From: an uncultured Halieaceae bacterium
GTDB taxonomy: Bacteria > Pseudomonadota > Gammaproteobacteria > Pseudomonadales > Halieaceae
Length of the DNA: 64,000 bases
Assembly: GCA_913056165.1 (NCBI GenBank)
Contig: CAJXMD010000007.1
Location: 1 to 64,000, forward strand
Direction of reading: 5' to 3'
Shown here: in pieces, positions 7,433-57,268 of the stretch
How the letters are laid out: each line of letters begins with the position of its first letter
Position numbering within the stretch: the stretch's first letter is position 1
Position numbers and translations under genes: made by a program
Notes under the pieces: generated by a model
What the model was told of the DNA's origin: nothing
The model's database searches: none
The model's input: only the letters and a program-made list of their open reading frames with translations

Positions 7433-8308
7433 ATGGCAGTTGTAAATACAAACGTAAACGCTACCGTTGCGCAGAACGCGTTAGTTCGCAACGAGCGTCA
7501 GATGAACACTGCCATGGAGCGACTGTCGACTGGTCAGCGTATCAATGGCGCCAAAGATGATGCGGCTGGACTCGCCATCTCATCCAGAATGACCTCGCAG
7601 ATAAGGGGTCTTGAAGTCGGTGTTCGCAATGCAAACGATGCTATCAGCATGATTCAGACTGCTGATGGGGCGTTAGTAGAAGTCTCTAACATGCTGCAAC
7701 GGATGCGCGAGCTCGCATTGCAGTCGGCGAACGGGACGACTACCGAGTCTGACCGCAACTACCTCAATAAAGAATATCAGAACCTGCAAAGCGAAATTGA
7801 GCGGATCGCCGATGCCACGGAGTTCAACGGCAAGGTCATTTTGCACGGCGATGCCGCTGCTGCCGGGGATTCAAGCGTTAAGTTTCAAGTGGGTGCCAAC
7901 GGCGGGCAAACGATTGCAGTGGACTTTGGAGATATTTCTGCATCGGGTAATGCGGCTTTCACGGCGTTGAGCGCCGGCGCTGGCACTGGCGGCTTTATTT
8001 CCGCGCAGACTACAGCATCGGCCATTACGACTGCGTCGACGGCAGTGGTGGCTATTGACTCAGCTATCACCTCTGTAAACACTCAACGTGCGACCTTTGG
8101 TGCGGCGATTAACCAACTAAACTACGCCATTGATAACCTGTCCAGTGTAAAGGTAAATGCGGAGGCATCACGTAGCCGCATCCTTGATACTGACTATGCG
8201 ACCGAGACTTCTGAACTCGCTCGCACGCAGATTATCCAGCAGGCGGGAACGGCGATGTTGGCCCAGGCTAATCAGTTGCCTCAGACGGTTCTTTCGCTTT
8301 TGCAGTAA
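7433..8308 (+). CDS. fliC: Flagellin 1
   Basis: The filament subunit, exported through the flagellar type III channel. The N-terminal D0/D1 helices ([20 protein letters not shown], then [18 protein letters not shown]) and the C-terminal D1/D0 ([20 protein letters not shown] to QTVLSLLQ) are well conserved. At 291 residues there is only a short Ala/Thr/Ser/Gly-rich central part, so no large D2/D3 domains. It is almost the same as flagellin 5 at both ends and shares its promoter-leader sequence, pointing to a recent inverted duplication. A strong terminator follows. Confidence 0.97.
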
Positions 8309-8321
8309 TAGCGGATTGAAG

Positions 8322-8352
8322 AAAAAAGCGCCCTCACCGGGCGCTTTTTTTT
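8322..8352 (+). terminator. Rho-independent terminator after flagellin 1
   Basis: Stem GCGCCC (8328-8333) and GGGCGC (8339-8344), a 5-base loop, flanked by an A run and a T8 run. It separates flagellin 1 from the flagellin 2 promoter. Confidence 0.92.
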
Positions 8353-8422
8353 GTGGCTATGTTTTCGGGAAGTTCAGCAAGCGTTCATTAGGCTTGAGTG
8401 AACTTAAGTAACGAAGTGACGC

Positions 8423-8449
8423 TAAAGATTTTTAGACTAATGCCGATAT
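8423..8449 (+). promoter_or_regulatory. sigma28 (FliA) promoter of flagellin 2
   Basis: TAAA at 8423-8426, 15 bases, GCCGATAT at 8442-8449. It lies 57 bases before the start codon of flagellin 2. Confidence 0.92.
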
Positions 8450-8506
8450 TTTCTAATGAAGTGAAATCCGCATCGGGTTGGGCCGAACGATATTGAGGAG
8501 AGAGCT

Positions 8507-9364
8507 ATGGCGGTAGTGAACACAAATATTGGGGCGTCGATCGCGCAAAATGCCCTGAGTAAGAACGAACGGTCGATGAATACAGCGATGGAGAGACTCT
8601 CGACCGGGAAACGTATTAACGGTGCCAAGGATGACGCCGCCGGGCTTGCAATCTCCTCGAGGATGACCTCACAGATCAATGGTTTGGCAACAGGAATGAA
8701 GAACGCCAGCGATGCGGTCAGTATGATTAGTGTCGCTGATGGGGCTATGGTAGAGATAGGCAACATGCTGCAACGTATGCGGGAACTTGCCCTGCAGGCC
8801 TCAAATGGCACTACAACATCGGCTGATAGGGATTACCTGAATACCGAGTATCAGAACCTGATTACTGAGATTGAGCGCATAGCACAGAATACACAGTGGA
8901 ACGGCACCGATATATTGAATGTAGCCAGCAATTCGGTGAAGTACCAGGTCGGCGCGAATGGCGGACAAACCATTGCAGTGGACTTCGCGGCGGTTGATCA
9001 AACAAACGGGTCGGCTTTTGGCGTATTCGCTACAGGTGCTTCGGCGGTTTCTATAGCGGCAGGCACCACTGCTTCAGCGCTTACCGCTGGAACTGAGGCG
9101 GTAACAAAAATTGACGCAGCCATCACGGAACTTAATGAGAATAGAGCGACATTTGGTGCGGCCATCAATCAATTGACCTATGCCATGGACAATTTAGCAA
9201 GTGTAAAAGTCAACTCCGAGGCAGCCCGTTCTCGTATTGAGGACGCCAACTACGCCGAGGAGACGTCTGAGCTCGCCAGAACCGCAATTATCCACCAGGC
9301 AGGCCTCGCTATGCTTGCGCAGGCGAATCAGGTGACTGCAACTGTTTTGGCGCTGCTGAAGTAA
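8507..9364 (+). CDS. Flagellin 2
   Basis: A 285-residue flagellin with conserved N-terminal ([20 protein letters not shown]) and C-terminal ([20 protein letters not shown]) helices. It departs from the other four near the C-terminus: [20 protein letters not shown] instead of the usual Gln-Gln and Leu-Pro-Gln sequence, and it ends in LALLK. This suggests a specialised place in the filament. It has its own sigma28 promoter and is followed at 70 bases by flaG with no terminator between, so the two are probably co-transcribed. Confidence 0.96.
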   Translation: MAVVNTNIGASIAQNALSKNERSMNTAMERLSTGKRINGAKDDAAGLAISSRMTSQINGLATGMKNASDAVSMISVADGAMVEIGNMLQRMRELALQASNGTTTSADRDYLNTEYQNLITEIERIAQNTQWNGTDILNVASNSVKYQVGANGGQTIAVDFAAVDQTNGSAFGVFATGASAVSIAAGTTASALTAGTEAVTKIDAAITELNENRATFGAAINQLTYAMDNLASVKVNSEAARSRIEDANYAEETSELARTAIIHQAGLAMLAQANQVTATVLALLK

Positions 9365-9434
9365 GGGCTTTAACCGAGCTGATTTTTTGCACCGGATAGG
9401 GGAGTCGTTGCAAGACAGCTGGAGGGAATGAAAG

Positions 9435-9863
9435 ATGGACAAGGTTCCTGCGAGCACAGCATCTACTGCGGCCCAAGTGGCCGCTAACAAAGCCGCTGTT
9501 GCAAGTGGTAAGGATCAGAATGCAGGTCCTGATAACAAAGTTAAAGTAAAGCAAGACCGCGCACCTGCAGTATCTATTGCGGAGGTAGCAGCTGACGCCG
9601 CAGATGGTAAGTTGAGGAGTGTAAGCGCGTTAGCTTCGATTTCCGAGTCAATTGACGACGCGGTTGAGGTGTTGAACGAAGCTTTGAGTAAAAGGCATAC
9701 GAGTGCGCAAATTCGGCGTGATGATCAGCTCAACAGATTTTTGGTCACCATCAAGGACAAGGACTCCGGAGAGGTGGTGCGCGAAATTCCAGCAGAGGCG
9801 CTGCTTAAGTTTGCTCGGAATTTAGAAGAGCTTAAAGGCATCCTGTTTGACGAAACGCTTTAA
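9435..9863 (+). CDS. flaG: FlaG family flagellar protein
   Basis: A 142-residue protein whose last 70 residues match FlaG: a helix followed by QLNRFLVTIKDKDSGEVVRE and IPAEALLKFARNLEELKG. The N-terminal half is Ala/Lys-rich and low in complexity. FlaG proteins affect filament length in polar flagellates and usually sit between flagellin and fliD; here fliD does not follow, and the next gene is a convergent flagellin. GGAGG lies just upstream of the ATG. Confidence 0.88.
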   Translation: MDKVPASTASTAAQVAANKAAVASGKDQNAGPDNKVKVKQDRAPAVSIAEVAADAADGKLRSVSALASISESIDDAVEVLNEALSKRHTSAQIRRDDQLNRFLVTIKDKDSGEVVREIPAEALLKFARNLEELKGILFDETL

Positions 9864-9883
9864 ATTTGGCTTCTGGGAGACGT

Positions 9884-9918
9884 CCCGGTTGTGTTAATGA
9901 AACCGGGGGTTTGTTTTT
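9884..9918 (+). terminator. Terminator after flaG
   Basis: Inverted repeat CCCGGTT (9884-9890) and AACCGGG (9901-9907) with a 10-base loop, followed by a T-rich tract, just downstream of the flaG stop. Confidence 0.75.
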
Positions 9919-9941
9919 ATCAGACAGGTATTTTCCGCGAC

Positions 9942-9969
9942 AAAAAAAACGCCCAGTCGGGCGTTTTTT
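9942..9969. terminator. Bidirectional terminator between flaG and flagellin 3
   Basis: Short stem CGCCC (9950-9954) and GGGCG (9959-9963) flanked by A8 on the left and T6 on the right, so it can work on both strands between two convergent genes. Confidence 0.88.
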
Positions 9970-9984
9970 GTTGCTTTGTAAGCC

Positions 9985-10857
9985 TTACTGCAGCAAAGAA
10001 AGCACTGTTTGGGGAAGCTGATTCGCCTGAGCCAGCATTGCCGTTCCCGCCTGAGAGATGATTTGCGTTCGTGCGAGCTCTGATGTTTCTTTGGCGTAAT
10101 CAGCGTCTAAGATTCGACTACGAGAAGCCTCAGCATTTACTTTCACGCTAGCCAGGTTGTCAATGGCGTAAGTTAACTGATTGACAGCTGCGCCGAAGGT
10201 AGCGCGCTGGCTATTCACAGCAGTAATCGCACTATCGATCGCGGTGACTGCTGCAGTGCCGGTCGTGATTGCTGATGCGGTGGTCTGAGCAGATATTGCC
10301 GCGGTGGCGGCTGCGGCACTAAACGCCTGAAACGTGGTCCCACCCGATTGAGAAATATCTCCGAAATTCACAGCAACAGTTTGTCCGCCGTTAGCACCAA
10401 CTTGGAAGCTTACCGTCGGATCACCGGCAGCATTAGCGTCTCCTTGAAGGATAGAGCGTCCATTCCACTGCGTATTTTGAGCGATGCGCTCCATTTCCGA
10501 GATTAGGTTGGCGTACTCCGCATTAAGGTAATTGCGATCTGCCTCTGTCGTGGTGCCATTCGAGGATTGAAGTGCGAGCTCTCTCATCCTCTGAAGCATA
10601 TTTGTTACCTCGATCATCGCACCGTCAGCTGTTTGCAGCATGCTGATCGCGTCATTCGCATTTCGAATGCCCACTTCCAAGCCTCGAATTTGTGACGTCA
10701 TTCGAGAAGAAATTGCCAGTCCCGCTGCGTCGTCTTTGGCGCTATTGATGCGACTACCAGTGGATAGGCGCTCCATGGCGGTGTTCATATCGCGCTCATT
10801 TCTCGTCAAGGCGTTTTGCGCAATGCTGGCGCCTACATTTGTGTTTACGACTGCCAT
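9985..10857 (-). CDS. Flagellin 3
   Basis: A 290-residue flagellin with standard D0/D1 ends ([46 protein letters not shown]) and an Ala/Thr/Ser-rich short middle. No clear sigma28 or sigma54 site is seen in the 104 bases upstream, and no terminator separates it from flagellin 4, so it is probably read from the sigma54 promoter of flagellin 4 or from an unrecognised promoter. Confidence 0.96.
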   Translation of the reverse strand: MAVVNTNVGASIAQNALTRNERDMNTAMERLSTGSRINSAKDDAAGLAISSRMTSQIRGLEVGIRNANDAISMLQTADGAMIEVTNMLQRMRELALQSSNGTTTEADRNYLNAEYANLISEMERIAQNTQWNGRSILQGDANAAGDPTVSFQVGANGGQTVAVNFGDISQSGGTTFQAFSAAAATAAISAQTTASAITTGTAAVTAIDSAITAVNSQRATFGAAVNQLTYAIDNLASVKVNAEASRSRILDADYAKETSELARTQIISQAGTAMLAQANQLPQTVLSLLQ

Positions 10858-10961
10858 AATGGCCCTCCTAATATTAACAAGTACTGCGTTACCTTTCGTT
10901 GTTTAAAGAGTTCTGGGTGATCCAAGCTTAGGGCCTTGATCTAAATCAGCACTCGTTCTTA

Positions 10962-11858
10962 CTACCCTAATAAATCCAATACGCTTGCCGGCAGCTGATT
11001 CGCCTGGGCGAGCATTGCTGTACCTGCTTGCTGAATGATTTGCGTCTTGGCGAGCTCAGAGGTCGCATGAGCGTAATCTGTGTCCATGATTCTGCTTCGG
11101 GTGGATGCAGCATTGATGGACACCTGCGTTAAATTGTCGATCGCGTGAGTCAGTTGGTTCACCGCAGCGCCGAAGGAAGCTCGTTGATTACTGACGTTTT
11201 CGATGGCGTTGTCGATGCCGGTCATCGCCGCGGATGCGTTGGTTTGAGCCACGGCTGTCGTGGCACCTGAAATGGCGATGTCAGCCAAAGCTCTGCTGCC
11301 CGAGTTTGTTCCAGCCGCAATACCAGAGGCGCCAGTGGCCAAGCCACCTCCCGTCATGTTGCCAAAATTAACAGAAATAGTCTGACCGGCGTTGCCGCCC
11401 ACCTGATAGGAGACATCGGTCACAGCGGAACCCCCTGCGTTTCCGTTGAGTACTGCTCGACCATTCCACTCGGTGTTGTTAGCAATTCTATCTATCTCGG
11501 CCTTTAACCGACCAAACTCATCCTGAAGATAGTTCCTGTCAGCAACACTGCCAGTGCCGTTAGAGGCTTGGAGTGCCAGTTCTCTCATGCGCAGCAACAT
11601 GTTGGTCATTTCGTCCAGAGCGCTTTCTGCGGTCTGGATCATGCTGATTGCATCGTGGGCATTCTGTACAGACTGCTCGAGCCCTACGATCTGTGAGGTC
11701 ATCCTGGAGCTGATCGCAAGACCCGCGGCGTCGTCGGCTGCAGTGTTGATCTTCTTGCCAGTTGATAACTGCTCCATCGCCTTGCTGAGCGCGCGCTCGT
11801 TTTTGGCTAACGAAGCTTGCGCAAGCGATGCGCTGATGTTCGTATTTACAACCGCCAT
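10962..11858 (-). CDS. Flagellin 4 (divergent, sigma54-driven)
   Basis: At 298 residues the longest and least similar of the five: the N-terminus reads SLAQASLAKNERALSKAMEQ, then [20 protein letters not shown], and it ends in LPASVLDLLG rather than QTVLSLLQ. The middle is Gly/Ala-rich. It is the only flagellin with a clear sigma54 promoter. In Vibrio species one sigma54-dependent flagellin (FlaA) is the essential core subunit while the others use sigma28. By analogy flagellin 4 may be made first and form the filament base or core; that is inference. Confidence 0.95.
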   Translation of the reverse strand: MAVVNTNISASLAQASLAKNERALSKAMEQLSTGKKINTAADDAAGLAISSRMTSQIVGLEQSVQNAHDAISMIQTAESALDEMTNMLLRMRELALQASNGTGSVADRNYLQDEFGRLKAEIDRIANNTEWNGRAVLNGNAGGSAVTDVSYQVGGNAGQTISVNFGNMTGGGLATGASGIAAGTNSGSRALADIAISGATTAVAQTNASAAMTGIDNAIENVSNQRASFGAAVNQLTHAIDNLTQVSINAASTRSRIMDTDYAHATSELAKTQIIQQAGTAMLAQANQLPASVLDLLG

Positions 11859-11905
11859 GATTCTGGTCTCCTAATGGCTTTGTTCTTCGGTGCACAAGCT
11901 GAACA

Positions 11906-11920
11906 GCAGGAACCGTGCCA
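11906..11920 (-). promoter_or_regulatory. sigma54 promoter of flagellin 4
   Basis: Read on the minus strand the site is TGGCACG, GTTCC, TGC: the -24 GG and -12 GC are separated by exactly 10 bases and the -24 box is a perfect consensus. It lies about 48 bases before the start codon. Confidence 0.88.
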
Positions 11921-12159
11921 ATTCGTGATCTACCAGTTCTAAGTGCCTGTTTTTTAGAGATATTAATTTTTTTTGTTGGTGAGGCTGGCAACTTAAAAAT
12001 GGTTTATGAGGCGGGGCCGGCAATGATTTGCCGCCGGATATTGGGGATTAGTAGTCGTAAAAATTGAGATGTGGGTTTAGTCCGCAACGGGCCATACGGT
12101 GGAGCATTGTTTTGCCTGCAAAGCTTCACTCTGCAGCGGCCCGGACAGCAATTTAGGGC

Positions 12160-12190
12160 AAAAAAAAGCGCCCTGTTGGGCGCCTTTTTA
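12160..12190. terminator. Terminator after flagellin 5, able to act on both strands
   Basis: Stem GCGCCC (12168-12173) and GGGCGC (12178-12183) with loop TGTT, flanked by an A8 run and a T5 run, immediately downstream of the flagellin 5 stop. It resembles the terminator of flagellin 1. Confidence 0.9.
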
Positions 12191-12208
12191 TGGGTTTCTG
12201 ATTTTTCG

Positions 12209-13072
12209 CTACTGCAGAAGCGACAGCACTGTCTGGGGCAGCTGATTGGCCTGGGCCAACATCGCTGTTCCGGCTTGCTGGATGATCTGGGTGCGAGCAA
12301 GCTCAGACGTCTCGGTCGCGTAGTCCGTATCGAGAATGCGGCTCCGAGAAGCCTCAGCATTCACCTTAACGCTAGCAAGGTTGTCTACTGCGTAAGTCAA
12401 CTGATTCACCGCCGCACCAAAGGTGGCCCTCTGAGAGTTAACAGAAGCAATAGCCGAGTCGATCGCAACAACAGCTGATGTGGCAGTAGTCATTGCGCTT
12501 GCAGTGGTACCCGCTGCGATGCTGCCGTGGGCCGAGTTGACCTCTTGCATCACCCCAGAGGCGCCAGTGTTGTTGAAGTCACCGAAATCCACCGAAATCG
12601 TCTGACCACCATTTGCACCCACTTGGTAGGAAAACGTGCTACTGGCTGTGGTGGTGTGATTCAGTATTGACCCACCGTTCCATTGCGTATTCTGCGCAAT
12701 GCGATCGATCTCAGTAATTAAATTTTGATATTCCGAGTTTAAGTAATCCCGGTCGGAAGAGGTGGTTGTTCCGTTCGCTGACTGCAACGCCAGCTCTCGC
12801 ATGCGCTGTAGCATGTTTGTAACCTCGACCAGCGCGCCATCTGCCGTACTGATCATGCTGATGGCGTCATTGGCGTTGCGAATTCCGACCTCTAACCCTC
12901 GGATTTGCGATGTCATCCGTGAAGAAATGGCCAGCCCGGCGGCATCATCTTTGGCGCCGTTGATGCGTTGACCGGTAGATAGCCGCTCCATGGCGGTATT
13001 CATGTGGCGCTCATTACGCACTAGCGCGTTCTGAGCAACGGTTGCGTTTACATTTGTATTAACGACGGCCAT
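12209..13072 (-). CDS. Flagellin 5
   Basis: A 287-residue flagellin almost identical in its first 110 and last 80 residues to flagellin 1, and in inverted orientation to it. The central part differs (it has [18 protein letters not shown] and GVMQEVNSAHGSIAAG). Its promoter leader is also related to that of flagellin 1, so the duplicated unit included the promoter. It is divergent from maf. Confidence 0.97.
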   Translation of the reverse strand: MAVVNTNVNATVAQNALVRNERHMNTAMERLSTGQRINGAKDDAAGLAISSRMTSQIRGLEVGIRNANDAISMISTADGALVEVTNMLQRMRELALQSANGTTTSSDRDYLNSEYQNLITEIDRIAQNTQWNGGSILNHTTTASSTFSYQVGANGGQTISVDFGDFNNTGASGVMQEVNSAHGSIAAGTTASAMTTATSAVVAIDSAIASVNSQRATFGAAVNQLTYAVDNLASVKVNAEASRSRILDTDYATETSELARTQIIQQAGTAMLAQANQLPQTVLSLLQ

Positions 13073-38273: not shown

Positions 38274-39341
38274 ATGGCCGAAGCAGCAAAGAAATTAGGT
38301 GTTGGTGACGACGAAAGGGAGCTCCCAGAGTTTGTAAGAGCGGAGCTTGAGACCATGACCTCCACCGAGCGAGCAGCAGTCATTATGCTCTTAATGGGGG
38401 AAACGCAGGCGTCGGATATTATCCGGTATATGAATCCCAGAGAGGTGCAGGCGCTGGGCTCGGCGATGGTTGGGGTAGTTGATCTTTCACAGGAAACAGT
38501 AAGTGCAGTGCTCGACGACTTTGTCGGCACCATTAAACAGCAAACCAATTTGGGGTTGGGAACCACCGACTATGTCGAATCGGTATTAAAGCGGGCTCTT
38601 GGAGACGATAAAGCGAGTACGGTACTCAGCAGAATCTTACCCGGAGGCTCTACCAAGGGCTTGGAAATTCTTCGTTGGATGGATGCGCGAGCTATTTCAG
38701 ACATGATTATTAATGAGCATCCTCAAGTGGTTGCCATTATCTTGTCAGTGCTCGAGTACGATGTTGCGGCAGATGTCCTGAGCTTTCTTCCCGAAGAAAA
38801 TCGTGGTGAAGTGATGCAGCGCGTTGCGAGTTTAGAGACTGTTCAACCTTCTGCAATGGAAGAGCTTGAGAGAATTATGACGCAACAATTCTCAAGCAAC
38901 TCGTCGGCGCAATCCTCTAGTTTTGGTGGCGTGAAGACGGCGGCCAAGATTATGAACTTTGTCAAAGTCGATCTGGAAACATCGGTGATGCAGTCGCTGA
39001 CTAATCTTGACGAAGAACTAACCCTGCAGATTCAAGACAACATGTTCACCTTTGAAAACCTTTCCATGGTGGATAACCGTGCCATCCAGGTCATGATGAG
39101 GAATATAGAATCGGATCTGCTGATGGTGGCCTTGAAAGGTGCTAGTGAGGAGACCCGGGATAAGTTTTTCGACAACATGTCGCAACGTGCGAAGGCGATG
39201 TTTATTGATGACATGGAATCCAAGGGCCCCATGCGGATCTCTGATGTAGAAGACGCGCAGAAGAACATCATGCGAATTGCCAGAAAACTGTCCGATGCTG
39301 GCGAGCTGGTGCTTGCCGGTCGTGGAGATGACTTTGTCTAA
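38274..39341 (+). CDS. fliG: Rotor switch protein FliG
   Basis: 355 residues with N, middle and C domains. TSTERAAVIMLLMGE opens the MS-ring-binding domain, the middle has the hinge motif INEHPQVVAIILS, and the torque-generating C domain includes the charged ridge between MFTFENLSMVDNR and NMSQRAKAMFIDDM. It starts 11 bases after fliF with a strong AGGGGG site and overlaps fliH. Confidence 0.96.
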   Translation: MAEAAKKLGVGDDERELPEFVRAELETMTSTERAAVIMLLMGETQASDIIRYMNPREVQALGSAMVGVVDLSQETVSAVLDDFVGTIKQQTNLGLGTTDYVESVLKRALGDDKASTVLSRILPGGSTKGLEILRWMDARAISDMIINEHPQVVAIILSVLEYDVAADVLSFLPEENRGEVMQRVASLETVQPSAMEELERIMTQQFSSNSSAQSSSFGGVKTAAKIMNFVKVDLETSVMQSLTNLDEELTLQIQDNMFTFENLSMVDNRAIQVMMRNIESDLLMVALKGASEETRDKFFDNMSQRAKAMFIDDMESKGPMRISDVEDAQKNIMRIARKLSDAGELVLAGRGDDFV

Positions 39342-49789: not shown

Positions 49790-50752
49790 GTGAACAACGA
49801 TTCATTAGATGATTCTCAATTAAGTCTTCTCCCGCATTCTGATGATCGGCGCATTTTGGACGCCGCTTTAGAAGCGCTCGTCAGCGGTGCATCTAATGTA
49901 TTTATTGTCGGTGAGTATGAATTTCATATTGATGCATGTTTTTTAGCGCTTTACGGAGAGCTAAAGCTTAACCCCTCTCTACAACTGCATCGTATGATGT
50001 CCCCCAAGGTTGACGACATCGTAACCCTCTTTAATGAACTCTTGGCCAACCTATCTATCGATGAAGCACGGAATTATGAGGCGGAGGGGCGTCACATCAT
50101 TATCATGCCGGACTTTGGTCCCAATGCTGGGAAGGAATGGCTAGCCTGTGAGTCTCTGGTGAATACGTTCCCCGGCGCAAACGTAAGTATGCTAGCTTTC
50201 TCGACCCTTGCTAATCACGACTCATCGGACTTACGTCAGTTATCAATAAAATCCCGCAACGTGGTCTTGCGTTTGTCAGAGTTGAATAACGAATCGATGG
50301 AAAACTATCTCAGCGAATGTTACGAGCGTGGAGTGCTTTCTGACCTATTACCCGCCCTGACTGGTTCAATTTGGCACGAAGCAGCGCTAGCAATGTTGGG
50401 TTTGAGCGCAAACGAATTGCCCAAGCAAAGCGTTTCTGACTATGACGATTTAATGTCTTCCGAACAGGAGGGCCTGTCACTGGAGCCGCTTGTGGTTGAC
50501 ACCTCGTCTGGTGATGATGACTTAGAAGAGGCCAGTGCTGAAGCTGTCCAACATACTTGGCGCTCATCGCTTGCTGCAGTGTGTATTACGCTGGCGGCAT
50601 TTTCTCTGGTGATAGTGGTTGCCGGACTAGTGCACCCCCCGCTCTGGACCAGCATTGAGATGGTTGTCAGTGCGTCGCTTGAGCTAGCAAATTCGCTCCT
50701 GGAGGAAGCAAAATCATGGCTTAGTACCGTAATGAATCAATGGAACAGCTAA
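49790..50752 (+). CDS. Membrane-anchored protein with a possible degenerate AAA-like domain
   Basis: 320 residues, one membrane helix near the C-terminus (about 261-282). The N-terminal 200 residues follow the order of ExeA/MshM/DamX-type ATPases: VSGASNVFIVGEYEFHIDA where a P-loop would be, GRHIIIMPDFGP where Walker B would be, and a late SIKSRNVVLRLSELNNESME. The P-loop Gly-Lys-Thr and the acidic Walker B are missing, so nucleotide binding is unlikely. The similarity is weak pattern matching and should be treated as a hypothesis. It follows flhB by 49 bases on the same strand and is probably in the operon. Confidence 0.6.
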   Translation: MNNDSLDDSQLSLLPHSDDRRILDAALEALVSGASNVFIVGEYEFHIDACFLALYGELKLNPSLQLHRMMSPKVDDIVTLFNELLANLSIDEARNYEAEGRHIIIMPDFGPNAGKEWLACESLVNTFPGANVSMLAFSTLANHDSSDLRQLSIKSRNVVLRLSELNNESMENYLSECYERGVLSDLLPALTGSIWHEAALAMLGLSANELPKQSVSDYDDLMSSEQEGLSLEPLVVDTSSGDDDLEEASAEAVQHTWRSSLAAVCITLAAFSLVIVVAGLVHPPLWTSIEMVVSASLELANSLLEEAKSWLSTVMNQWNS

Positions 50753-50776: not shown

Positions 50777-50797
50777 CGACTTAAAGAGAGGTGTGTG

Positions 50798-51625
50798 ATG
50801 ACAGACGACGACAATCTTGATCCGGGCGAGGACTTGGTTTTGCCCAGCAACCGAAGCACAGCGATAAGTGCTCCGGCCAGTACTCCTGTAGATAACGGAT
50901 CTACAACAACACTGGGCGCAGACACACAGGCAAGATTGGACAGGGCGTTGGACTCGGCACATGCAGTGAGCGCTAAAATGGAGACATATGCCAAACGTTT
51001 GGCCGGTGGCGCGGCGGTAGTCGTATTTCTGTCTGTCATTCTTCTCATGGTGGCTGGCGGCCGACTGTCAGGACAAGTGGACGCATTGCAGGCCGCAACG
51101 CTGTCCATTACCAAGCGCGTAGTCAACATGAATTCGGCGTTAGATCGAATGGTCGTCTTGGAACAGCGGCTCGCTCTACTTGATGAGGGACATGCTCAGA
51201 TGGTTGAGGCGGTGGGGCAATTGGACGCCAGGGGTATGAGTTTGGCAGAACAGGTGGAGTCCTCGATGTCTGCTGTACAGTCTACTGTAGTTGATACGAG
51301 TGACGTTACGAGAAGCGGTGTGGAGTCCACTAGGGCGATGATCGCGCAACTGGATCGGCAGGCAGAGCAGCTTGGGACTCTGACTCAGCGTATCGCAGAA
51401 TTAGAGCTGGGTTTAAGAGACGTCGCAGCACTCAAACGTGATGTGGCAACGCTTGTAGAAATAGAAAGGGATAATCTAACTAAACTTTTTGAGGCCCAAT
51501 TGGCCTTAGAACAGGCGCAGATAAGTCAGCAAATGGAACAGTCCACCGGCAGTACGCCTAGCGCTCCAGAAAAAAGCTATTCAGAGGACGCTATCGTCTT
51601 TCCGGAGCCTGCATCTAGACAGTAG
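50798..51625 (+). CDS. Membrane-anchored coiled-coil protein of the sigma28 regulon
   Basis: 275 residues from ATG 50798. An acidic cytoplasmic N-terminus (1-65), one membrane helix (about 68-88), then a long periplasmic coiled coil (about 95-250) and a polar tail. The topology recalls a chemoreceptor with its ends missing or a tether, but no HAMP or signalling domain is present. Its own sigma28 promoter places it among late flagellar genes, with stators and flagellins. Function unknown. Confidence 0.7.
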   Translation: MTDDDNLDPGEDLVLPSNRSTAISAPASTPVDNGSTTTLGADTQARLDRALDSAHAVSAKMETYAKRLAGGAAVVVFLSVILLMVAGGRLSGQVDALQAATLSITKRVVNMNSALDRMVVLEQRLALLDEGHAQMVEAVGQLDARGMSLAEQVESSMSAVQSTVVDTSDVTRSGVESTRAMIAQLDRQAEQLGTLTQRIAELELGLRDVAALKRDVATLVEIERDNLTKLFEAQLALEQAQISQQMEQSTGSTPSAPEKSYSEDAIVFPEPASRQ

Positions 51626-51628
51626 TTT

Positions 51629-52246
51629 TTACGGAGTGATTGCTGGCAGGTCGGGACTTTCGCTTGATTGCCTGCCTGCCACGTCCCGTATAGCGCTTTC
51701 AACGAAAGAAGAGCCAGCATCGATAGCCATTGATATCGCATCTATAACTTCCTCCAGCTGCGTGACTAGAGTGGCATGCCGGTCGCTGTTGTCCTGAACG
51801 CCAAGTTCTTTGCTCAAGGCGTAAAGTCTCTCGGCTTGAGAGGAGGGTAAGTAGGATTCAAATTCCCCCCGAAGCATTTTTATTTTGAGAGGGTTCGATG
51901 GTGGTTCAGTAATTCCTGCTTGCCCATGTTCCATTCCTGTTTTAATAACAGAGCGTACATGGAGTTCGAGCAGGGCTAGAAATCGTTCTTGATCGCCCTT
52001 GATCTGATACTGATCTTCTGCGCCATTGGCCATGGCCACCCATTCATCCCAAAGTTCTCGCCCACTAAGACCCGCAAATACTTTTTGGCGAGCAGGTTCG
52101 ACACTGTTAGCGGTGTCGCTAGGCATTGCGTTCGAGAATGCTCTGGCTTCGAGGTCGTTCACTCTGCTAATCAAATAGATAATAAGGATGAGGAGGACGA
52201 TTCCAAGAAGAAGTGAGATAGCAATGATGGTGCTTTCAAGGGACAT
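51629..52246 (-). CDS. Single-span membrane protein downstream of fliA
   Basis: 205 residues: an N-terminal membrane helix (about 5-27), then a cytoplasmic helical part containing SGRELWDEWVAMANG and LRGEFESYLPSSQAERLYAL. No family recognised. It is the last gene of the flhA-flhF-flhG-fliA transcript and converges, 3 bases apart, with the coiled-coil gene. Confidence 0.65.
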   Translation of the reverse strand: MSLESTIIAISLLLGIVLLILIIYLISRVNDLEARAFSNAMPSDTANSVEPARQKVFAGLSGRELWDEWVAMANGAEDQYQIKGDQERFLALLELHVRSVIKTGMEHGQAGITEPPSNPLKIKMLRGEFESYLPSSQAERLYALSKELGVQDNSDRHATLVTQLEEVIDAISMAIDAGSSFVESAIRDVAGRQSSESPDLPAITP

Positions 52247-52283: not shown

Positions 52284-52766
52284 CTATTCATCTCCGTCTT
52301 CTGAGTCTCCGCTTCTGAGTAGACCTAACAATTGAATGTCTTGACTGGTTTGCAATTCTTCAACTAGGCACGCTGCAATTTTGTCGGCTTGTTCTAATGC
52401 TTCATGAGCACTGACCTGTTGAATCTGGTAATCCGCGCCCAGATTGAACATCTTGTCCGCCAATTCTTCAGGCACCCAAGAAACAACCGCACCTGATACC
52501 CCCTGCAGTTGATTATATCCCTCGTGCTTTATTCTTGGCGGTAGCTCCTTGCCTGCTTTCAGGGCTTCCGCAAGGTCTGTTTGCCTTTTTTCTTCTGTTT
52601 TGGCGCCCTGCACGAAAATCTTATCAAGATTGAGGCGCGCTCTTTGCGCTATCCTCGCCGAGAACATGCGATGCAAGCGGTCCTCCGGATCGAGAGTACA
52701 GCACTTGAGAAAGTCAGCTTTCGCGTCAGCTTTTATGCGCTCTAGTTTTGATTTTTTTCCAAACAT
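52284..52766 (-). CDS. Small cytoplasmic protein downstream of fliA
   Basis: 160 residues, basic N-terminus (FGKKSKLERIKADAKADFLK), no membrane segment, a middle with KHEGYNQLQGVSGAVVSWVP and an acidic C-terminus. No family recognised. It follows fliA by 15 bases in the same operon, so a flagellar role is likely from position. Confidence 0.65.
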   Translation of the reverse strand: MFGKKSKLERIKADAKADFLKCCTLDPEDRLHRMFSARIAQRARLNLDKIFVQGAKTEEKRQTDLAEALKAGKELPPRIKHEGYNQLQGVSGAVVSWVPEELADKMFNLGADYQIQQVSAHEALEQADKIAACLVEELQTSQDIQLLGLLRSGDSEDGDE

Positions 52767-52781
52767 GCTACTACCAAAATA

Positions 52782-53501
52782 TTAAATACCCACTCGTTTA
52801 CGTAACTTCTCTACCACTTTAGTTAGTATCTGACTCACTCGAGATTCGCTTACGCCAATGATCGCGCCAATCTCCTTCAGATTCATTTCGTCGTTATAGT
52901 ACAGCGAAAGTATCGTTTGCTCGCGTTCCGGTAATGTAGAGATTTCGTTGGTCAACCAATTGGCAGTTTCTGCGGCTTCTACGTCATCTTCTGGGCCCGC
53001 GTCCTCAGAAAAAGCAGACTGGCCGCTCTCTTCAAGTTCATCAAGTGAGCTAGTACGAAATTTTTGTGAACGACTTCGTTGTTTATGATATTCGTCTACC
53101 GACGTGTCTAACTCTTGGGCGATCTCATGAGCTGTCGGTTGCCTGCCATACTTGGTTAAAAATTTATCTACTACCTGTTCTTCAGCTTTAATATGTGAGT
53201 TGTCAGCCCTGGATAACGGTGATCTTTTTCTTACCTCGTCCAGAATCGCGCCTCTGATTCGCTTGCTAGCGAATGTACCCAGATCAGCACCTTGTGAAGC
53301 GTCGTAGGATTTTGCCGCCTCTAGCAGTCCTACCATGCCAATTTGGACCAGCTCCTCTAGTTCTACATAATCAGGCAGTCTTGCTTTGATGTGTAGAGCG
53401 GTCTTATGTACTAGCCCTATATGTTGAAGCACAGCGGAGTTGTCTCCGCTACCCCTGGAGGTCTCTAATGCATCAGCATATGCTTGATAACCTTTGGACA
53501 T
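52782..53501 (-). CDS. fliA: Flagellar sigma factor FliA (sigma28)
   Basis: 239 residues with regions 2, 3 and 4: LVHKTALHIKARLPDYVELE, FASKRIRGAILDEVRKRSPL and the C-terminal ALPERE-type TLPEREQTILSLYYNDEMNL followed by IGVSESRVSQI. It directs transcription from the TAAA-N15-GCCGATAA promoters in this window and is held by FlgM until hook completion. Preceded by flhG, with AGAGG upstream. Confidence 0.97.
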   Translation of the reverse strand: MSKGYQAYADALETSRGSGDNSAVLQHIGLVHKTALHIKARLPDYVELEELVQIGMVGLLEAAKSYDASQGADLGTFASKRIRGAILDEVRKRSPLSRADNSHIKAEEQVVDKFLTKYGRQPTAHEIAQELDTSVDEYHKQRSRSQKFRTSSLDELEESGQSAFSEDAGPEDDVEAAETANWLTNEISTLPEREQTILSLYYNDEMNLKEIGAIIGVSESRVSQILTKVVEKLRKRVGI

Positions 53502-53504
53502 GGA

Positions 53505-54290
53505 CTAGCCTCTAGCACCTACCGATATCCTGGTATCACTTGAGCTGGCGGGTTTGGAAGGGGACTTTGTGATGACGTCCACAAGTCGCTTGATATCCGT
53601 TGCAATATCACTTTCAGGTGCGTGAAGGATTGCCGGTTGACCTAATCGCGCTGAGTTCAACACTACTGGGTCTTTTCGGATACCCGCAGCGTACTCAAGC
53701 GATAACCCAAGGAACTGTGCCGTCACTTTGTTTATACGTCTGTGAATGTTTTCTGATTCTTTCTCGTTACTGACCTGCACAGGCGTCAGCATGATGTCAG
53801 TAAGATTAAACTCCTGTTGAAGAACCTTGACGGTAGCATAGGCGTCCGCAATCGAAGAGGGCTCGTTCTGGATTAACAGCAGTTTGATGTCGCAAGCGCC
53901 GAACAAAACAGTGACGTTATCAGTAATACCAGCCGCAGTATCGACCACGAGATAATCGCAGTCCTCCAAGGCGGAGAGGGCATGAATCAGCCCCAGGAGT
54001 TGCAATCGAGTTAGGCGAGCCAGAGCAGATGATCCACTAGATCCTGGGACCAAAGTCACCCCATATTCTGATTGAACCATAATTTCTTCAAGAGTCTTTT
54101 GGCCAGACAGAACATGGCCATAACTGTATTCCACCCTCGCATTCAGTAGAATTTGAGCGTTGCTCAGACCCAGGTCGCCATCTAGCAGGACGACTTTCTT
54201 ACCTCGGTTAGCGAGCTCCACAGCAAGGTTTACAGAGACAGTTGTCTTTCCAACGCCCCCCTTACCGCTTGTTACGCCAATTACTCGCAT
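53505..54290 (-). CDS. flhG: Flagellar number regulator FlhG/FleN (MinD-type ATPase)
   Basis: A ParA/MinD ATPase: deviant Walker A KGGVGKTT (about 10-17), [14 protein letters not shown], and the switch [12 protein letters not shown]. It limits flagellar number by acting on FlhF and FleQ-type activators. ATG at 54290, with AGAGGG upstream, gives 261 residues; the frame also extends to 54353, overlapping flhF. Neither version shows the N-terminal DQAxxLR motif with which FlhG stimulates the FlhF GTPase. That fits the loss of the GTPase domain in the neighbouring flhF. Confidence 0.92.
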
Positions 54291-54343
54291 GGGTACCCTC
54301 TTACTACTTTGATTACCGCCCTCTGTTATCAGGGCCAGAGTGT

Positions 54344-55141
54344 TTACGCCCAACCTACCCCTAGTTTACGCTCACTTTCCTCAGAAAACGACAGGGATTT
54401 GCTCGCCTTGGATATGCACCCTAGCAGAAGAAGGGAGAAGTTCTCGGCTTCCTCAGAGGTGCAAACCCGCGGTATGACTGCATCGGTGGATGCGTCGCCA
54501 GGCTTCTCATCAGGGGGCAAAACGCTGTTGAGCCCATCGACGGAATTCAGCGGGGTAGTTGGAAGTCGTGTAGCCAGAAGCGCCGTCTCCTCATGTGGTG
54601 CTATGCCCACTTCGCGAGAGTCAATCGAGATACTTTCATTTGCCATGTCGTGATCTTCACTCTCATCGGCGACCACGTCTGAGAGCACCTCGGAGAAAAT
54701 CGCCGCCCTGAATTCATTAGTTTCAGGTTCCAATATGGCCGGTTTAGGGGGCTCTTCCAGTGCTCTCAAGCGAGCCGCCAGTGCCACCAAACCCGAGTGT
54801 ACCTCGGGTAACGGTTCGTGGACTCCCTGGTCGCTTGGCCCAGCTACCTGCGGAGTGTCCATTGCTAAATTGGCCGATCGGTTTTTGGGCTCATCCACAC
54901 CGCCTCTTTCGACCTCTGCAATGAGGTGATCGGGAGCTACCACTGGAGAGATAACGTCTTTCACGCCATTTACTTGTGAAAGGGTAGATGACTGCTCAGT
55001 AAAAGTCTCTAGTGCTAAAACGATGCGATAGTTGTCTTCAATTCTAAAGCTGTGCACGACTAGACAGTCTGCACCGTACTGCTTTCGTACTTTCTCCATG
55101 CAACTCCCATGATCGGCTGCCTGTACTACGACTAGTCGCAT
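54344..55141 (-). CDS. flhF: FlhF-like protein reduced to the B domain, GTPase domain absent
   Basis: 265 residues instead of about 400-500. The first 45 residues ([20 protein letters not shown], then [13 protein letters not shown]) match the FlhF N-terminal B domain. The rest is acidic, low in conservation, and ends in a short helix. No GPTGVGKTT P-loop, DTAG or TKLD motif is present, and the next gene begins at the stop, so the SRP-type GTPase domain is missing and not frame-shifted. FlhF normally marks the cell pole for the flagellum through GTP-dependent dimers. Position between flhA and flhG is exactly that of flhF. Confidence 0.82.
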
Positions 55142-55147
55142 GCTGAC

Positions 55148-57268
55148 TTACTCCTTCTCTTCTTCAATGGCGGATTCGCCACCAATACTTGATTGAACCT
55201 GAATGCGCTGATCATCTGGTATCTCGGTATAAGATAATACTGTTAGGTCGGGGACCCTTACCCTGACAAAACGAGACATCCAAGTCCTAAGGGTGGGGGA
55301 CACCACCAATGTGGCTGCGGCCCCCAAGTCTTGAATTTTCTCCGCCTCGCTTCGCAAACTTTCAATCATTGAGTTGGCGAGGGTAGGATCCAGCGTTATG
55401 TGGTCGGTCTCCACGCCCGTACGACTGCTCTCTAATAGTTTTTCAAGATCTGGAGCGAGTGTGATAACTGTTAAAGTGCCGGTGTCATCAACTAACGGTT
55501 GACAGATTAACCTGCCAAGTTTTGGCCTCACTGCTGAGGTCAGATGACTTGCATCCTGATTTTCTTTTGCATGAGCGGTTAGCGCGTCAATGACGTTACG
55601 CATGTCTTTTACTGGAACTGACTCTGCCAGTAAGTTTTGAAGCACTTGAGTGACTGTGGATAAGGGAAGGAGATCGGGGACAAGGTTACTGACTAATTTG
55701 GGATAGCGAGTAGCCACCTTATCAAGAAGGAGTTGAGTTTCATCCTGACCAAGCAACTCGCTGGCGCTATCTCGAATGACCGCGTTAATGTGTGTGGCAA
55801 TTGCTGTCGGTGCGTCTACAACCGTATAGCCCAGTCCTCGTGCGAGCTCAGCTTGTGACTGCTCAATCCACAAAGCGTCGAGTCCAAATGCCGGTTCTTT
55901 AGTGGGTTCTCCATCAATGGGTGCCGGCATGTCAGAACTGTTAATGGCCAAGAGCTTTCCAACTCGGACATCACCGCTGCCTCTAACAACACCGTGTAGC
56001 GATATCTGATAGACCTCAGGTTTTAGATCGAGATTGTCTCGAATACGAATTGGCTGAATTAAAAAGCCGAGTTCTGCAGATAACTTTTTGCGAATCCCCC
56101 TAATCCGGGTTAGTAACTGACCGCCCGATTGAGTATTTGCGAGGGGTACTAGGCCGTAGCCGATATCCAGCGCGATGACCTCTACTTGATCGATATCTTC
56201 CCAGTCGAGTTCTCGATTTGCTGGTTCTACTTCGGCGATGGCTTCGGCATTGACCGCCTCACGCTGTTCCTCTTGCGCTTGTTGGCGCAAATAGAACCCC
56301 AGACCAATACCGACAGCACCAAGTGGAAGAAACACAAAGTGTGGCATCCCGGGTATGAGTCCAAGCACGGTTACAATACCGGAGGCGATAAAAATGGCGT
56401 TCGGATCAGCGATCTGGCTCGAAGCTTGCTCAGCCATGCTTTCTTCTGTTGTGACCCGAGTAACAAGGATGGCGGTCGCTAGTGATAATAGTAAGGAGGG
56501 TATTTGCGCTACTAATCCATCACCAATGGTGAGTAGCACGTAGATCCGTCCAGCCTCGCCGAGGCTTAGTTCGTGTTGGGTAGTGCCAACGATAAGCCCG
56601 CCTACAATGTTGATAACGAGAATGAGGATGCCGGCAATGGCGTCGCCTCTTACAAATTTTGAAGCTCCATCCATAGAGCCAAAGAAATCTGATTCCTGAC
56701 CCAGCTCGTTTCGCCTGGTCTTTGCCTCTTCTTGATCAATGATGCCTGCATTGAGGTCCGCATCAATAGCCATTTGCTTTCCAGGCATGGCGTCAAGAGT
56801 GAAGCGCGCGATTACCTCCGATACCCGTCCAGCACCCTTCGTGACTACGATGAAATTTATAATCATGAGAATCAAAAAGATGATGAAACCCACCACGTAA
56901 TTTCCCGCGATCACGAACTCCCCGAATGATTCGATAACTTTCCCGGCGGCATCGGTGCCGGAGTGGCCCTCGACCAGCACCACTCTGGTAGAGGCCACAT
57001 TGAGTCCGAGTCTCAGGAGGGTCGCAATCAGGAGAACCGAGGGGAAGGACGAAAATTCCAGAGGCTTGCGTGTGTTGAGGGTGATCATCACCATCAGCAG
57101 GCCCAACATGATGTTGAATGTAAACAAAACGTCCAGCAGAAAGGCAGGGAGCGGAACGACCAACAGAGCCAATATAAGCAAGACCAGTGTCGGCGCACCG
57201 ACACTTTTCCCGCTCAGCCATGGCATGCGGCCCGAAACCTGTCGAAAATTTGACAGAATTGCTTCCAA
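55148..57268 (-). CDS. flhA: Export gate protein FlhA
   Basis: 706 residues: eight membrane helices with the FHIPEP-type cytoplasmic loop containing DAMPGKQMAIDADLNAGII, and a four-subdomain C-terminal part that docks chaperone-substrate pairs. Start is TTG at 57268, behind GGGAGG and just after an in-frame stop, so no earlier start exists. It heads the flhA-flhF-flhG-fliA operon with its own sigma54 promoter. Confidence 0.97.
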   Translation of the reverse strand: MEAILSNFRQVSGRMPWLSGKSVGAPTLVLLILALLVVPLPAFLLDVLFTFNIMLGLLMVMITLNTRKPLEFSSFPSVLLIATLLRLGLNVASTRVVLVEGHSGTDAAGKVIESFGEFVIAGNYVVGFIIFLILMIINFIVVTKGAGRVSEVIARFTLDAMPGKQMAIDADLNAGIIDQEEAKTRRNELGQESDFFGSMDGASKFVRGDAIAGILILVINIVGGLIVGTTQHELSLGEAGRIYVLLTIGDGLVAQIPSLLLSLATAILVTRVTTEESMAEQASSQIADPNAIFIASGIVTVLGLIPGMPHFVFLPLGAVGIGLGFYLRQQAQEEQREAVNAEAIAEVEPANRELDWEDIDQVEVIALDIGYGLVPLANTQSGGQLLTRIRGIRKKLSAELGFLIQPIRIRDNLDLKPEVYQISLHGVVRGSGDVRVGKLLAINSSDMPAPIDGEPTKEPAFGLDALWIEQSQAELARGLGYTVVDAPTAIATHINAVIRDSASELLGQDETQLLLDKVATRYPKLVSNLVPDLLPLSTVTQVLQNLLAESVPVKDMRNVIDALTAHAKENQDASHLTSAVRPKLGRLICQPLVDDTGTLTVITLAPDLEKLLESSRTGVETDHITLDPTLANSMIESLRSEAEKIQDLGAAATLVVSPTLRTWMSRFVRVRVPDLTVLSYTEIPDDQRIQVQSSIGGESAIEEEKE

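Follow-up and report, generated by a model that had tools for sequence, protein, structure and literature searches.

The flhF gene in a flagellar cluster of an uncultured Halieaceae bacterium codes for a protein of 265 amino acids in which no GTPase domain is detected. We regard it as likely that this is a domain-deleted but functional FlhF, a nucleotide-free assembly factor which binds FliG, that the HubP tether and the release by GTP hydrolysis are gone, and that the position of the flagellum is either set in another way or is no longer polar. FlhF counts as the third SRP GTPase; in present models its NG domain has two jobs, the tethering to HubP and the GTP-timed release of FliG. The textbook mechanism of placement by FlhF cannot operate as described in these bacteria. 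The whole stretch of DNA analysed, 64,000 nucleotides, is called the window. Statements on published work cited by PMC number refer to parts of the papers concerned.

The features of the window used in the argument are these (cluster types A and B are defined further on):

54344..55141, minus strand: flhF, short form, 265 aa with an ATG start, NG/GTPase domain undetected.
55004..55141, minus strand: residues 1-46 of the short FlhF, fold of the FliG-interacting domain (FID), beta-alpha-beta-beta (AlphaFold, Foldseek, hhalign).
54668..54799, minus strand: residues 115-158, conserved helical block with predicted helices 116-129 and 142-160, of moderate confidence at best (pN/pS).
54347..54484, minus strand: residues 220-265, C-terminal block with a predicted helix 230-249 and pLDDT 83 and 77 over 231-250 (pN/pS).
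55148..57268, minus strand: flhA, type A (Pfam/NCBIfam, FlhA tree).
53505..54290, minus strand: flhG/fleN, MinD-like ATPase with a P-loop and without the DQAxxLR helix (Pfam, motif check).
52782..53501, minus strand: fliA, sigma-28, with sigma-70 regions 2, 3 and 4 (Pfam), named from its position.
52284..52766, minus strand: o160, accessory gene of no Pfam family, homolog in 34 of 80 named loci (the best 80 of 534; flanks often cut).
51629..52246, minus strand: o205, accessory gene with a hydrophobic N-terminus by eye, homolog in 43 of 80 named loci (the best 80 of 534; flanks often cut).
50795..51625, plus strand: p276, convergent, by eye a membrane and coiled-coil protein, homolog in 24 of 80 named loci (the best 80 of 534).
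49790..50752, plus strand: p320, by eye a membrane protein, lacking the C-terminal SPOR domain of its SAR92 and Litoricola homologs.
38274..39341, plus strand: fliG (Pfam FliG_N/M/C), with which the FID is predicted to interact.

A sequence-only reading which preceded this work had placed a protein of 265 residues at the flhF position between flhA and flhG, and an intact open reading frame is indeed found there, 6 nt past the flhA stop. That reading also let flhG begin right at the flhF stop, which is nearly right: the longest flhG frame, with a TTG start at 54353, overlaps flhF by 10 nt, and the likely start, an ATG at 54290 matching the start in close relatives, leaves a gap of 53 nt. The intergenic room around flhF is too small for a G domain of about 200 residues. 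As standard FlhF does, the short form adjoins flhG within the flagellar operon. The order flhA-flhF-flhG-fliA is common to the window and the Luminiphilus type A loci L082, L083, L085, L088, L093 and L208-L214 (some of these loci are one genome twice), and since the same short-flhF architecture is found in nine genomes an assembly error is excluded. The flagellar set of the window is otherwise rich, with Pfam matches for fliE, F, G, I, K, L, M, N, P and R, flhB, flhA, flgA, M and N, two rod genes and five flagellin genes.

The earlier statement that no P-loop, DTAG or TKLD motif occurs in any frame stands for G3 and G4, as a six-frame scan of 54291-55147 gave neither a D(T/S)xG nor a (T/S/N)KxD string. 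For the P-loop it has to be amended: one Walker-A-like string, GFSSGGKT, lies in an antisense (+) frame. It is a chance occurrence, since it is antisense and accompanied by no G motif. The profile searches proposed at the same time, with FlhF and SRP54 G-domain models, point the same way. Pfam gave no family at E<=1, and the short FlhF scores -2.3 bits with a G-domain profile built in this study, on which FlhF proteins with G1, G3 and G4 score 58-308 bits (13 of these built the profile); an SRP-type NG GTPase with these three motifs is undetected. With the NCBIfam FlhF model TIGR03499 there is a weak match over residues 1-158 (E 2.3e-4), of 21.3 bits against a curated cut-off of 174 bits, and because the score lies under the cut-off we term the protein a domain-deleted descendant of FlhF and not a standard FlhF. 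A MAFFT placement had suggested that the C-terminal block contains a remnant of the G4 region; this was rejected, as hhalign against five FlhF groups aligned just the first 46-53 residues.

What remains of FlhF is the N-terminal domain. The AlphaFold model, made from 23 sequences, is of low quality as a whole (mean pLDDT 61.9, pTM 0.26), with block means of 94-97 at residues 1-40 and 76 at residues 41-50. A strand (2-8), a helix (11-22) and two strands (26-34 and 37-44) are predicted, and residues 1-44 are predicted to form one beta-alpha-beta-beta domain; the FID of Shewanella is built, within residues 1-44, from one helix and three antiparallel strands (PMC11236974). Foldseek against the PDB put chains of 9en1, the FID of Shewanella putrefaciens FlhF, on all of ranks 1-8 (target TM 0.77-0.84, rmsd 1.1-1.9, probability 1.00); the domain is short, the best E is 2.3e-3, and no match reached E<=0.001. 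With hhalign, residues 1-46 align to the FlhF of the Litoricola group (E 3.3e-7, probability 93) and residues 1-47 to 1-53 to four other FlhF groups (probability 50-83), and nothing past residue 53 aligns to any of the five; no N domain is detected. With a profile made from six short forms the PDB gave no chain at E<=10; a second profile, from an alignment including full-length FlhFs, matched 9en1 and SRP GTPases. The B-domain pattern claimed for the N-terminus is thus recovered by fold, by TIGR03499 and by hhalign, all beginning at residue 1. The best folds are FlhF's own N-terminal domain and not those of an unrelated family, and together with gene position and the G-domain score this upholds the descent from FlhF and the GTPase-free state which had been proposed.

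The sequence-only reading had allowed for a second full-length flhF elsewhere in the genome. At E<=1e-10 no flhF-like SRP54 match, meaning one adjoining flhA or scoring far below Ffh/FtsY, is found in any of the six type A draft genomes (68-96% complete), and the same search, by our reading of the places listed, gave one in 12 of 21 genomes of other families and in 3 of 37 genomes of the genus. The window genome, a draft of 2.43 Mb in 114 contigs (86.7% complete), has two SRP54 (PF00448) matches above cut-off, which we read as FtsY (370 aa) and Ffh (466 aa, with a methionine-rich tail). Matches at E<=1e-10 number two in G000, G020, G024 and G034 and one in G018 and G028; these last two, with one SRP GTPase alone, are incomplete in this respect. 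That a second FlhF has been overlooked is possible in one draft genome and less likely in six. In 390 genomes of the order TIGR03499 (210 above cut-off) was set against FlhA (289 at E<=1e-60), but the difference was not taken as the number of lost GTPases, since FlhA occurs without FlhF and since Ffh and FtsY match TIGR03499 too.

Relatives came from a search of genome contigs with an FlhA alignment, the best 80 of 534 being used. Among these 80 the nearest FlhA belong to Luminiphilus sp. or Halieaceae records and to L207 (CALKCC010000052.1), filed as Pirellulaceae with an FlhA 99% identical to that of the window and probably mis-binned; the next, at 59-65%, are from Porticoccaceae (SAR92), the Litoricola/HIMB30/LSUCC0096 group, Comamonadaceae, Limnohabitans and one Methylobacillus record. 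FlhA is present in 20 of 37 genomes of the genus, in two cluster types: the FlhA of type A shares 70-95% identity with that of the window, the FlhA of type B about 50%. L. syltensis, the type species, lacks motility and seems to be negative for flh genes, with the column order of the source inferred (PMC3679898). An FlhA tree was built from 70 rows. Its eight rows of Luminiphilus type A come out as a single clade (SH-aLRT 100) within a gamma- and betaproteobacterial group, and the type B rows stand with other Halieaceae; it should be noted that this is a quick tree without bootstrap, with long branches, outgroup rows which are not one clade and 12 open inner branches. Because of this placement of the type A clade, away from type B and the Halieaceae, the type A cluster was probably acquired horizontally and would be foreign to the Halieaceae. 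The comparison with relatives called for at the outset shows the short form in every one of the nine complete flhF genes from type A Luminiphilus/Halieaceae, all lacking Walker A and scoring at most 0.1 bits on the G profile.

The comparison was widened to 129 distinct complete FlhF-position proteins, defined as the first ORF of >=150 aa after flhA on the same strand. This is a non-random sample, made of the nearest by FlhA and of representatives of the order, with duplicates of genome-set proteins counted once. Left out were L076, L086 and L103 (contig ends or flhF absent), L096 and L104 (G043, flhG not beside flhA), L170 (a 20-base stub), L207, L223 and L282 (no flhF ORF in the locus) and L221, L231, L256 and L279 (flhF cut by a contig end). 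Walker A is kept in 110 of the 129 and missing in 19. It is found in none of 9 Luminiphilus type A proteins, 7 of 13 of Luminiphilus type B, 20 of 22 of SAR92, all 11 of the Litoricola group, 11 of 12 from other type A gammaproteobacteria (only 7 of which reach 25 bits on the G profile), all 40 from the remaining named loci, mostly betaproteobacterial by title, and 21 of 22 from other members of the order. The betaproteobacterial type A motifs are intact (e.g. GPSGSGKT..IDTPGV..SKLDE). Most SAR92 proteins have SRFD or SRLE in place of TKxD, and the HIMB30 type of the Litoricola group also has an altered G4, AEMSP. In SAR92 L253 and L261 the strings are GRLGIENS and IETT, in type B G005/G030 and kin GGSGADRA and IETP, and G401 has an FlhF of 295 aa with Walker A present and no G domain that scores.

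At least five changes of the Walker A state are required on the FlhA tree (parsimony; 15 of 70 rows without Walker A). Parsimony itself gives no direction, and we infer loss because the outgroups are intact. Judged from these sequences Walker A has been lost more than once, the GTPase domain has eroded by degrees with type A Luminiphilus at the end of a graded decay, and the destruction of the P-loop in type B appears as a separate loss in the same genus. Several single cases were seen along the way. A recognisable G domain with a destroyed P-loop is found in type B G005, G016, G017, G027, G030 and G035 (L077, L080, L081, L087, L089, L094). The FlhF-position protein at L242:7098-8390 has a normal length of 431 aa and a G domain of just 1 bit, and G045 (L097:4066-5004), from another family of the order, has an FlhF of 312 aa without a P-loop in a genome which encodes DUF2802/FipA. 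In genomes of family f37 (e.g. G109, G253, G293) the open frames which hold the FlhF matches are 722-806 aa long, well above the usual length.

Outside the FID the short FlhF is not uniform. Two of its three predicted helices (116-129 and 230-249) have a block pLDDT of 71-83 around them, the values elsewhere are low, and the linkers are predicted to be disordered. In ten pairs from five sequences pN/pS is 0.16-0.32 for residues 1-46, 0.17-0.44 for residues 115-158 and 0.14-0.65 for residues 220-265 (the peak of 0.65 falls in saturated pairs), compared to 0.46-0.81 and 0.50-1.00 for the linkers. Saturation affects most dS values, and the only unsaturated pair, L210/G034, has 132-183 sites per segment. 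In this pair dN/dS is 0.12/0.48 for the FID, 0.04/0.16 and 0.05/0.48 for the two blocks and 0.20/0.29 and 0.21/0.49 for the linkers, that is ratios of about 0.25, 0.25 and 0.10 against 0.7 and 0.4. As the FID and the two blocks change more slowly than the linkers, the gene does not have the look of a decaying pseudogene. FlhF as a whole has diverged fast: in G020, G028 and G034 FlhA is 91% and FlhG 90-93% identical to the window, FlhF only 37-41%.

The known system closest in fold is the FlhF of S. putrefaciens (FID 9en1; NG 8r9r), which is alike in the N-terminal FID fold and in being encoded in the flagellar operon; in contrast to the Luminiphilus short form it has an NG GTPase, and hence the GTP dimer and the contact of NG with HubP. 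FliG binding in Shewanella both requires the first 60 residues and needs no more of FlhF than these, HubP is bound by NG, and FliG bound by FlhF takes FliF and refuses FliM/FliN (PMC11236974). In P. aeruginosa FlhF-BN, from which the G domain was removed, the B-domain part is kept, as in the short form; flagella form, about 65% of the cells carrying a non-polar one, FlhF-BN is diffuse and does not bring back swimming, and in Pseudomonas GTP hydrolysis is proposed to free FliG (PMC12713375). FlhF-BN is a laboratory construct, whereas the Luminiphilus form is natural, aligns over the FID alone and has a C-terminal block of its own. GTPase-motif mutations in Vibrio FlhF abolish polar localisation and flagellar formation (PMC6092412). 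Type B Luminiphilus FlhF (e.g. G005, G016, G030, G035) comes from the same genus and likewise lacks Walker A, but its G domain is recognisable (42-72 bits), its cluster is of the Halieaceae type and its change is a separate one on the flhA tree. The type A FlhFs of SAR92, Litoricola and betaproteobacteria share cluster type and FID family and differ in having a G domain, intact or altered. A literature search, with subscription journals mostly outside its scope, gave no report of a natural GTPase-less FlhF among the titles and starts of abstracts listed, and the consulted part of a December 2025 review of the FlhF/FlhG switch mentions none (PMC12826062).

Several neighbouring genes were considered as partners in the loss. 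The o160 and o205 genes are met with again behind fliA in type A clusters of gamma- and betaproteobacteria, and p276 in those of gammaproteobacteria. DUF2802 is the domain of FipA (PMC11620751). It is absent from o205 (E<=1), so o205 was rejected as FipA, and at E<=0.01 DUF2802 (PF10975) is found in 0 of 37 genomes of the genus, the window's included, and in 10 of 21 other genomes, 9 of them above cut-off. The absence of FipA was also rejected as the cause of the GTPase loss, as DUF2802 is missing from type B Luminiphilus and Litoricola G050 as well, and G045 has it together with an FlhF lacking Walker A. A matching loss of the DQAxxLR activator helix in FlhG was discarded as uninformative: the motif occurs in only 3 of 63 FlhG rows and is missing also beside intact FlhF. 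Pseudomonas FleN is likewise without it (PMC12713375). The p320 homologs of SAR92 and Litoricola (L287, L288, L289, L290) are 511-548 aa long with a C-terminal SPOR, which Pfam places above cut-off in two of the four, at 21.0 against 21 in a third and below in one. A SPOR-end profile from these four found 9 of 10 SAR92/Litoricola p320 ORFs (the four builders included) and no Luminiphilus ORF examined. The N-terminal domain of the homologs looks NTPase-like by eye, and a P-loop is absent. As a change of partner the SPOR loss was rejected, since it is limited to one clade and since SAR92 L216 without SPOR has Walker A and L253, which lost Walker A, has SPOR; it is kept as a mere lead.

How could such a protein work? 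The ancestor would have had the order FID-linker-N-G and lost the GTPase in the Luminiphilus type A clade, leaving a protein which may be described as the FID, linkers predicted to be disordered and two conserved helical blocks. As this natural short FlhF retains the FliG side only, we infer that it escorts FliG without nucleotide: the FID would still bind FliG and seed or escort the assembly of the MS-/C-ring, and FliG would be released to FliM/FliN by competition or by FlhG instead of GTP hydrolysis. With the NG-HubP tether gone, the position would come from another contact (a helical block or membrane accessories) or not be strictly polar. Against this stand the roughly 46 residues which align here, where 60 are needed for binding in Shewanella, the fast divergence of FlhF (37-39% identical where FlhA is 91% identical), the pN/pS of up to 0.65 in the C-terminal block, the poor model outside the FID, and FlhF-BN and the Vibrio mutants, which show that the G domain matters elsewhere. 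The wider claim is that the GTPase of FlhF is dispensable in nature, with Walker A lost in at least five changes, mainly in marine gammaproteobacteria, that type A Luminiphilus FlhF is a nucleotide-free FliG nucleation factor and that the flagellum is placed or the C-ring released without an SRP-type GTPase; we hold this to be slightly more probable than its contrary.

Within the favoured explanation the flagellum may no longer be polar: the short FlhF would start assembly through FID-FliG, FlhG would still limit the number, and the position would be random or lateral. This agrees with the FlhF-BN phenotype and with the distribution of DUF2802 between the genus and the other genomes. The missing SPOR domain of p320 in the window and in the Luminiphilus ORFs examined also fits, as SPOR might bind the septal or polar wall. 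We can go no further than a tentative view here, since a HubP/FimV C-terminal domain is found in all six type A genomes (FimV occurs also in genomes without FlhA), FlhG is retained at 90-93% identity in close relatives, and DUF2802 is equally missing in type B Luminiphilus and in Litoricola G050, and G motifs persist in several of these, so that its absence is not tied to the GTPase loss. It is conceivable to a similar degree that polar placement survives through a substitute, one of the two helical blocks or o205, p276 or p320, which would hold FID-FliG at the pole without GTP. The greater constraint on the two extra blocks than on the linkers and the recurrence of o160, o205 and p276 in type A clusters would suit such a role; the accessories also accompany intact G domains, however, and therefore did not arise as replacements.

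Fast divergence, and FlhF genes ranging from intact to gutted, would be expected if the short FlhF were a relic on its way out and of no more use, but nine intact ORFs with start and operon place retained and a constrained FID make this improbable. Replacement of flhF by an unrelated small protein could account for the lack of Pfam matches, of PDB sequence matches at E<=10 for the short-form profile and of Foldseek matches at E<=0.001; with the 9en1 folds, TIGR03499 and hhalign all starting at residue 1 and with the position fixed, we give it hardly any credence. If the short protein is a functional FlhF, as we favour, a natural FlhF with an FID and without a GTPase separates the two jobs of NG, and which of them are essential becomes testable; the series from intact domain to altered G4, lost P-loop and deleted domain offers ready-made steps for swaps.

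Near one end of the window, at 7442-13063, the five flagellin genes stand in two facing groups, two on the plus and three on the minus strand, and two more Flagellin_N matches, one of them a fragment, are found elsewhere in the window genome.
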